Below are positions 24,232-49,380 of a DNA stretch of 64,000 nucleotides, piece after piece; position 1 is the first letter of the stretch, and each line of letters starts with the position of its first letter. The position numbers were made by a program, and so were the translations under genes. The stretch is taken from NCBI GenBank assembly GCA_945882415.1, contig CAMCWC010000009.1, positions 1-64,000 of the forward strand. The letters run 5' to 3'. The notes under the pieces were generated by a model, which saw only the letters and a program-made list of their open reading frames with translations, had not been told where the DNA came from and did no database searches. Origin of the DNA: Chthonomonas calidirosea (GTDB taxonomy: Bacteria; Armatimonadota; Fimbriimonadia; Fimbriimonadales; Fimbriimonadaceae).

Positions 24232-24250
24232 CTAGGAGGACAAGATTTAC

Positions 24251-24340
24251 CTGCAAGGGGAGCCACACGGCTGAGAGTTCTGGTATTTGCCAGATGACCC
24301 TAGGAACCTGATCCGGTTAATACCGGCGGAGGGATTGCGG
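24251..24340 (+). ncRNA. TPP (THI-box) riboswitch aptamer
   Basis: All hallmarks are present in order: closing stem P1 (CTGCAA 24251-24256 with TTGCGG 24335-24340), the GGGGAGCC...GGCTGAGAG box, a P3 hairpin (TCTGG/CCAGA, 24279-24294), TGACCC, the GAACCTGATC box, a P5 hairpin CCGG-TTAATA-CCGG and GGAGGGA. This is the thiamin pyrophosphate sensor. The next gene is a prepilin-like protein, and no thiamin gene is present in the window. A GGCGG in the P5/P4 arm could pair with CCGCC at 24368-24372 as an anti-aptamer structure, which would suit a translational or folding switch; no terminator is visible downstream. Confidence 0.95.
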
Positions 24341-24426
24341 TGAACGATGGAACGACGGATGGTTTAGCCGCCCGGAGCGCCAATCGCTTTCGCAGTCAGC
24401 GGAGGTGATTCGCGTCCGGAAAAACC

Positions 24427-47776: not shown

Positions 47777-48433
47777 GTGAGCAAGCCCATCCGAAGTACG
47801 CAGTGGATTTTGGCCATCGTCGCGATTGGGCTTGTCGGTTGCGCCGGCCCTGCGCCGAGTGCTGCTTCCGGCGAGACCACGGTTCCGGCCGAGGAAAAGA
47901 TCGTTCTCGCCCCAAGCTTTACTGAGAGCGAACTTTTTCTGATTCACGAGGGAAATTCTCTCAAGCTCGGTTCGTCCTACGACCAGGCCGTGAAAGTCTT
48001 CGCTCCGGAAGCCAATTCGTTCGAGTTCGCCGAATTGCCGAAGCGATTTCAGCAGCCATATCGTGGTCAAGGCTGGGAGACGGCGAGAGAATCTTTCGGC
48101 ACGATCATGTACCAGCAGCGCATCGCGGTGGCGATGTACCAGTTAGACCGGGCTACGAAAGTTCAGCTTGAAGACCTCGTGAACCTCTACACCAGCACAT
48201 TTTCTGGCGTGACTCCCGAGAAGGTTGAAGGCAAGACGGTCCAGAACTGGTTCTGGAAACAAGGCGGGCAAACCCTGATGATCTCGGCCACCCAAGCGAG
48301 CACGGGAACCCTCCACGTTGCGGTTGCGCTGGGGTTGGACGACACCATGAAAGAGATCGGCGCGACTGAGACGGCGCTCGCCGATCAGGTCAAATCGGTC
48401 GATTCGAGATTTGGCCGAGAAGTCCCAAAATAG
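47777..48433 (+). CDS. Putative lipoprotein, 218 aa
   Basis: From the GTG at 47777 (AGGGA Shine-Dalgarno 8 nt before) the protein begins VSKPIRSTQWILAIVAIGLVGCAG, a lipoprotein leader with acylated Cys. The mature domain is mixed alpha/beta with no recognised family (FTESELFLIHEGNSLKLGSS, FGTIMYQQRIAVAMYQLD). The frame extends to a start at 47756, but that would lengthen the leader. It follows greA by 27 nt. It is followed directly by the 48434-48640 unit. Confidence 0.7.
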   Translation: MSKPIRSTQWILAIVAIGLVGCAGPAPSAASGETTVPAEEKIVLAPSFTESELFLIHEGNSLKLGSSYDQAVKVFAPEANSFEFAELPKRFQQPYRGQGWETARESFGTIMYQQRIAVAMYQLDRATKVQLEDLVNLYTSTFSGVTPEKVEGKTVQNWFWKQGGQTLMISATQASTGTLHVAVALGLDDTMKEIGATETALADQVKSVDSRFGREVPK

Positions 48434-48465
48434 TTGACGCGATTTCGAACAACCTCGCGTATATT
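48434..48465 (+). promoter_or_regulatory. Candidate promoter of the small leader/RNA unit
   Basis: TTGACG (48434-48439) directly follows the previous stop codon and TATATT is at 48460-48465. The spacer is 20 bp, longer than ideal, so the -10 box may be offset. The expected start is near 48472. Confidence 0.45.
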
Positions 48466-48501
48466 TAACTATCCCAACTAAAGGAGGTGGTGCTAAACAA
48501 A

Positions 48502-48543
48502 ATGAGTTCAGATAATAGCCACCGAGAGGGTTGTGGGTTTTAA
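48502..48543 (+). CDS. Putative 13-residue leader peptide ORF
   Basis: ATG at 48502 preceded by AAAGGAGGTGGTG (48480-48492), an almost perfect complement to the 16S rRNA 3' end, with 9-12 nt spacing. It encodes MSSDNSHREGCGF and stops at TAA. The coding part runs into the first arm of the conserved-looking stem (CACCGAGA). Short, so coding status is inferred from the Shine-Dalgarno alone. Confidence 0.45.
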   Translation: MSSDNSHREGCGF

Positions 48544-48604
48544 AGACTCGCAATAGTTAGGCGGGTTCTTCATGAACCCTTCCTTCTCGGTGTACAAAAA
48601 AACT

Positions 48605-48638
48605 AAGGGTCGCCTCGGCGGCCCTTTTTCATTTTTGG
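48605..48638 (+). terminator. Rho-independent terminator upstream of kdsB
   Basis: A 9-bp stem (48605-48613 with 48618-48626, one G-U pair, loop CTCG) is followed by a T-run TTTTTCATTTTT. It lies 14 nt before the kdsB GTG. Confidence 0.85.
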
Positions 48639-48651
48639 GTTAAGTAGTCAG

Positions 48652-49380
48652 GTGAAAACGGTCATCGTGATTCCGGCCCGAATGGGAAGCACTCGTTTCC
48701 CTGGCAAGCCATTGGTTCATCTGGCAGGGAAGCCAATGGTGGAGTGGGTCTATCGCGCGGCAATCGATTCTTCCTGCGCGGATGAAGTGGTGATTGCGAC
48801 CCCAGACCAAGAGATACTTGATGCGGCGGCTCTTTTCGGCGCGCCTGCGATCTTAACACGGCAAGATCATCCAAGCGGTACCGACCGATTGGCTGAAGTG
48901 GCAGACTCGCTTGCTGCCGATGTTTTCGTAAACCTCCAGGGCGACGAGCCGCTCATCGACTCCGCCACAATTCGCGCCTGCGCAAATGCGCTTCAAGCCT
49001 CGCCAACCGCTCATGCTTCGAGCGTCTATGCAGAGTGTTCCGAGTCGGAGGTCGACGAGCCTTCGGCAGTGAAGGTAGTGCTCCGATCCGATGAAACCGC
49101 ACTCTATTTCAGCCGGTACTCGTTGCCGTATCCTCGGAATCGGCGGGAGCTTCCGGTTTGGAAGCACATCGGAATCTATGCGTACCGCCCGGGAACCCTC
49201 CGACGCTTCGTCGCGCTCGGACCAAGTCCGCTAGAGCTAACCGAAGGGCTTGAACAGCTTCGCTTGCTAGAAAACGGCATGCAGATTCAGATGGTCCAGG
49301 GAGTGGCATCGCCGATCTCGGTGGATACGCCAGAGCAGGCCGTCACGGCAAACGAGCTTCTTTTGTCACGTGGTGCGTAA
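48652..49380 (+). CDS. kdsB: 3-deoxy-manno-octulosonate cytidylyltransferase
   Basis: A 242-residue CMP-Kdo synthetase, which activates Kdo for lipopolysaccharide inner core. VIPARMGSTRFPGKPLVHLAGKPMVEWVY, VFVNLQGDEPLIDS and LPYPRNRRELPVWKHIGIYAYRPG are diagnostic. Its presence implies an outer membrane with Kdo-containing LPS. The GTG start has no clear Shine-Dalgarno, and a terminator sits just upstream, so expression depends on read-through or on the leader element. Confidence 0.95.
   Translation: MKTVIVIPARMGSTRFPGKPLVHLAGKPMVEWVYRAAIDSSCADEVVIATPDQEILDAAALFGAPAILTRQDHPSGTDRLAEVADSLAADVFVNLQGDEPLIDSATIRACANALQASPTAHASSVYAECSESEVDEPSAVKVVLRSDETALYFSRYSLPYPRNRRELPVWKHIGIYAYRPGTLRRFVALGPSPLELTEGLEQLRLLENGMQIQMVQGVASPISVDTPEQAVTANELLLSRGA

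Follow-up and report, generated by a model that had tools for sequence, protein, structure and literature searches.

What is encoded in the ~170 bases immediately 5' of kdsB in the 64,000-nucleotide stretch of Fimbriimonadaceae DNA analyzed here (hereafter, the window)? An earlier note on this DNA described a compact RNA unit with a short reading frame, alternative hairpins, and a terminator, in the shape of either a translated attenuator or a small RNA with a leader peptide, and set beforehand a covariance check on relatives. That check found covarying pairs and a conserved open reading frame (ORF), so conservation and covariation uphold the description of the locus as a translated small RNA that ends in a terminator and can form alternative hairpins. 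We conclude that the locus is a free-standing RNA gene, one of a new family in the Armatimonadota, and the existence of the gene is secure. With a probability of about 0.5, we read this RNA as a free-standing, translation-gated conformational switch that would act in trans via a conserved core.

The transcript of the window copy would span from just after position 48463 to ~48635 (Table 1). The window RNA folds at -61.9 kcal/mol, compared with -43.7 kcal/mol for dinucleotide shuffles (z -4.5, with 0 of 200 shuffles as good). The near-perfect Shine-Dalgarno sequence, the 13-codon ORF, the 8-bp outer stem (P1), the 6-bp inner hairpin, and the terminator that had been picked out from the sequence are all in place, and dozens of genomes conserve every feature of the window copy apart from the precise promoter hexamer. 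In the conserved core motif (GUUU[UA]GC / [NAU]GAAC), segment d is strand Y. Elsewhere in the window, a TPP riboswitch (24246-24352, plus strand) scores over the Rfam threshold.

Table 1. Positions of the RNA gene's features within the window
Feature	Position	Strand	Detail or basis
Promoter region	48434-48463	+	-35-like TTGACG 48434-48439, -10-like CGTATA 48458-48463; sequence
Extended Shine-Dalgarno AAAGGAGGTGGTG	48480-48492	+	GGAGGTGGTG almost unchanged phylum-wide
13-codon ORF ATG..TAA, MSSDNSHREGCGF-UAA	48502-48543	+	frame conserved in homologues
P1 5' arm CACCGAGA (outer 8-bp stem)	48520-48527	+	within ORF; covariation
P1 3' arm TCTCGGTG	48585-48592	+	shortly 5' of terminator; covariation
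Segment a	48530-48538	+	ORF end; partner b, or d from 48535; covariation
Segment b	48544-48554	+	immediately 3' of stop codon; partner a or c; covariation
Segment c	48561-48570	+	partner b or d; covariation, blind scan
Segment d ATGAACCC	48572-48579	+	partner c or ORF end; conservation
Inner 6-bp hairpin	48563-48568 with 48574-48579		GGGTTC with GAACCC
GGGTT copies	48528, 48535, 48563, 48637		fourth copy 3' of terminator
AACCC	48575
Intrinsic terminator	48605-48640	+	stem 48605-48626, T-rich tail

The earlier note had recognized no family for this RNA, and a search of Rfam 15 bears this out: neither the window copy nor 20 stretches holding its relatives gave any family above the gathering threshold. 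A literature search likewise found no description of structured RNAs in the Armatimonadota. BLASTN against 60 relatives recovered homologues at 70-98% identity that share the Shine-Dalgarno sequence, the ORF, the stems, and the terminator. A covariance model built from 8 homologues then placed the RNA in 50 of 85 Fimbriimonadaceae genomes, in a single copy each; a second model, built from those 50 copies, found it in 76 of 291 Armatimonadota genomes, and a third, built from divergent members, in 83. When the model lists are combined (E below 1e-6), the RNA is present in ~112 of the 291 genomes across 12 families, 52 of them in the window's order and 60 elsewhere in the phylum; matches weaker than E 1e-6, which were read in part and include at least one stretch of coding sequence (L220), are left out of this count. 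The copy number is one per genome, and a single genome has a second, weak match. Named records (Fimbriimonadaceae, Chthonomonadales, and Armatimonadaceae) identify the phylum as Armatimonadota.

A DNA pattern scan over 84,980 species returned 49 matches, of which those in Bacteroidetes, Dehalococcoidia/Dehalococcoidales, Pedobacter, Alcanivoracaceae, and Nitrososphaerota are due to chance, as they lack the arrangement of Shine-Dalgarno, ORF, and stem. Viral contigs gave no match. The phylum of G291 (the Dehalococcoidia record L127), covered by 251 genomes, gave two weak matches, L221 and L222; the former, on the strand examined, reads like ordinary coding sequence. Matches of 20 nt near the P1 arm in four genomes (G002, G003, G011, and G018) resemble tRNA genes and were discarded.

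Within the Fimbriimonadaceae, the RNA is missing 3' of greA in at least 19 genomes, and neither the model at full sensitivity nor a loose pattern revealed a diverged copy behind greA in the genomes without a match. The RNA is thus dispensable in some lineages, and its absence from the greA locus points to repeated loss or relocation. The greA gene itself is conserved where the RNA is missing from this locus (G001 to G003, G006, G010 to G012, G015, G018, and others).

In the Fimbriimonadaceae, the order of elements is promoter, often a 5' UTR hairpin, GGAGGTGGTG, an ATG-initiated ORF, a hairpin, AUGAAC, the P1 3' arm, and the terminator. The ORF mostly ends in GGxGF, its stop codon lies within GUUUUAR, and both GUUUUAR and AUGAAC are close to invariant among homologues. 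The ORF of the other families (hereafter, the second group) takes the form M..SQRGD..G-stop and ends right before GUUUUAGCC; the core here reads GUUUUAGCC-hairpin-GGUCAUGAAC, and the start codon often lies within a hairpin. Relatives in families f24, f26, and f27 (L214, L217, L218, and L219) are missing the GUUUUAG/AUGAAC core and keep the Shine-Dalgarno sequence and the short ORF, with the stop codon in a hairpin loop in most of them. The RNAs of f19 (L106, L108, and L126) each carry both core strands twice, the second pair in swapped order, and this duplication points to the core as a structural module and not a product of chance sequence conservation.

Four segments, a (where the ORF ends), b (following the stop codon), c, and d (AUGAACCC), can pair either as a:b plus c:d, in which the loop of the a:b hairpin contains the stop codon, or as a:d plus b:c. 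The three GGGTT copies that had been proposed to compete for one AACCC are indeed present in the window, but across the family the competition takes the form of these two alternative pairings. A permutation test of cognate against non-cognate pairing in the Fimbriimonadaceae, uncorrected for relatedness, yielded z scores of -11.6 for P1, -7.4 for a:b, -6.6 for b:c, -4.1 for a:d, and -3.3 for c:d, whereas the control segment pairs were flat (a:c, +0.7; b:d, -1.2). These flat pairs, together with slid-column controls, argue against relatedness as the cause of the covariation signal. On the alignment, 95.5% of P1 cells are paired and 7 of 9 P1 pairs have changed on both sides, as have 5 of 7 pairs of b:c and 5 of 8 of a:b; fitting to the a:d/b:c fold tilts the counts from this alignment toward that fold, while the permutation test is independent of the alignment. 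Because pairs exclusive to one fold (60-80, 61-79, and 62-78 for a:b; 73-112 for b:c) have changed on both sides, each of the two predicted folds has covariation support of its own in the Fimbriimonadaceae. A blind scan of 666 segment pairs recovered the same helices, the terminator, and the 5' UTR hairpin, as well as an outer extension of c:d in competition with P1. The second group supports P1 (z -5.7), the core helix (-6.1), and a start hairpin (-3.5); its a:b signal is moderate (-2.6), and its b:c varies too little to be informative (-0.8).

The TTGACG noted upstream is present, but it is probably not a sigma-70 box, given a Fimbriimonadaceae consensus of GAAC(T/C)-N16/17-CGT, of which the window copy has a slightly longer spacing. 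AAC-N17-CGT lies upstream in 29 of 50 Fimbriimonadaceae homologues, against a shuffled mean of 1.7, and other spacings are at or near background. GAAAC/GAAC...CGT is the shape of ECF-sigma promoters, such as those of Bacillus SigW and SigM. The second group has TTGACA...TATAAT-like boxes, identified by eye. Judged by these motifs, the promoter is ECF-sigma-like in the Fimbriimonadaceae and sigma-70-like in other families. A search for a regulon sharing the ECF-type promoter gave too few matches over control to define one.

An ECF-type promoter, a terminator, and a free-standing gene also fit a classical base-pairing trans sRNA with a translated small ORF, controlled by an ECF sigma factor in the Fimbriimonadaceae much as RybB and MicA are by sigma-E. 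We consider this explanation unlikely, as the most conserved segments are held in helices and the promoters of the second group are sigma-70-like. Dual-function sRNAs such as SgrS/SgrT, RNAIII, and PhrS combine an independent promoter and terminator with a small ORF. The Armatimonadota RNA resembles them in these respects, its sequence being that of a free-standing gene that has a promoter and terminator of its own; its ORF, however, has just 10-14 codons, and the interior of that ORF forms one arm of the main stem.

Could the peptide itself be the product? The in-frame ORF is intact in all 50 Fimbriimonadaceae homologues, starts with ATG in 49, and is 12, 13, or 14 codons long, while stops interrupt the remaining two frames in most of these sequences. 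The second group contributes 24 intact ORFs, in which the stop may be UAG, UAA, or UGA yet is always present, and ORF length over the whole family is 10-14 codons. This strict frame, the strong Shine-Dalgarno sequence, and the C-terminal (Q)GGxGF of one group and SQRGDxxG of the other would suit a functional peptide of 10-14 residues (a signal, toxin, or regulator) with an RNA structure that serves just its expression. The conserved residues sit where the RNA pairs, however, and the SQRGD stretch is conserved at the nucleotide level (AGTCAACGAGGTGA). The unpaired part of the ORF, moreover, diverges equally at codon positions 1, 2, and 3 (133, 147, and 128), and no purifying selection is seen there. 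Equal divergence under a strict frame suggests that translatability is kept and the peptide is not; selection thus appears to act on translation, the peptide is probably not the product, and a functional peptide strikes us as quite unlikely.

The interpretation of the locus as a translated attenuator fares worse. A cis-acting attenuator, in which the position of the ribosome on a leader ORF sets terminator formation and so controls kdsB or whichever gene comes next, would accommodate the ORF, the alternative pairings, the terminator, and, in the window, a kdsB gene that starts ~12 nt after 48640 (GTG at 48652) and has no good Shine-Dalgarno sequence of its own. A simple scan found a terminator 25-40 nt past AUGAAC in 42 of 45 distinct homologues, but in the blind scan its arms covary with each other only and have no conserved alternative partner. 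The position of kdsB directly downstream stands as an observation, but a link to kdsB is not supported: of the 50 Fimbriimonadaceae loci, only 14 have kdsB as the next gene, and elsewhere the downstream genes (lysS, an RND transporter, an ETF subunit, D-Tyr-tRNA deacylase, and others) are unrelated and lie on the opposite strand, often convergent. Nor is there a run of regulatory codons. The conserved neighbor is instead greA, which precedes the RNA on the same strand at 44 of the 50 Fimbriimonadaceae loci, sometimes separated from it by a lipoprotein gene; families f32 and f35 have a greA homologue a few hundred bases 3' of the RNA, with a gene of the lysS cluster behind it. The lipoprotein gene (window 47777-48433, plus strand) is conserved between greA and the RNA in ~32 genomes. 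A terminator that covaries only with itself, before a downstream gene that varies and is often convergent, argues that the RNA is not a kdsB attenuator, a role that we now hold to be highly improbable. With a terminator in nearly every copy and differing genes downstream, comparative sequence marks the RNA as a gene that stands alone, under a promoter of its own.

The closest comparison among known systems is with trp-type attenuators, including rnTrpL of Sinorhizobium meliloti, a trans-acting attenuator RNA that encodes the 14-residue peptide peTrpL (PMC10117765). Both have a short translated ORF (in our case by conservation), mutually exclusive hairpins or foldings, and an intrinsic terminator, and both are small RNAs. 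The Armatimonadota RNA differs in being free-standing under its own promoter, with no biosynthetic gene or conserved regulated gene directly behind it, in having no regulatory codons, and in encoding a peptide that is unconserved outside the paired stretches. Its terminator is not among the alternatives, and since it lies outside the switch, the RNA differs from attenuators.

Like tmRNA, the RNA is structured, contains a short ORF, and occurs once per genome. A normal tmRNA is encoded elsewhere in the genome, however, so that slot is not filled by the Armatimonadota RNA, and no tRNA-like part was found in the window RNA. It shares with 6S RNA a structured, free-standing gene in one copy per genome, but it is translated, smaller, and without a match to the 6S model; a separate 6S RNA exists in the sister-family genome G038, which has the Armatimonadota RNA too, and in G037, which has a weak match to it. 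An Rfam 6S RNA match occurs in 0 of 19 genomes of the window's genus (G000-G018), while such a match is present in some sister families. A search of the window's genome for the exact 16S 3' end pattern found none. A ribosome sponge or decoy, in which the extended Shine-Dalgarno sequence and minimal ORF capture 30S subunits, is barely tenable: it would explain a Shine-Dalgarno far in excess of need and a second, Shine-Dalgarno-like stretch (GGGAGGT / CGAGGTGA) within the ORF, but it leaves the core motif, the alternative folds, and the narrow ORF length unexplained.

We therefore return to the translation-gated switch. The comparison of genomes supplies the promoter type, the Shine-Dalgarno sequence, the ORF frame, P1, the exclusive pairings, and the terminator, and from these we infer the mechanism, including the direction of the switch, its drive by the ribosome, and its action in trans. 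Because the ORF contains both the P1 5' arm and segment a, P1 and a:b must open when a ribosome translates it. Without ribosomes, the nascent RNA would fold into P1 and a:b, the hairpin around the stop codon. Once loaded at the Shine-Dalgarno sequence, a ribosome that reaches the stop codon would melt P1 and a, freeing b for c; upon its departure, the end of the ORF would pair with d, and the core GUUU[UA]GC / [NAU]GAAC would be assembled. The RNA would thus report whether translation initiation works, with its output delivered in trans through the core, which probably binds a protein or another RNA. More tentatively, it may be a phylum-wide sensor of translation initiation capacity, in which passage of the ribosome resets a bistable RNA and displays the core motif to a trans target.

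These data describe a hitherto undescribed RNA gene that is conserved over much of a little-studied bacterial phylum and whose ORF is seemingly kept for translation and not for its peptide. If the RNA is indeed a translation-gated switch, it would carry attenuator logic beyond cis leaders to an RNA that stands alone and would provide a concrete system for testing RNA-based sensing of ribosome supply.
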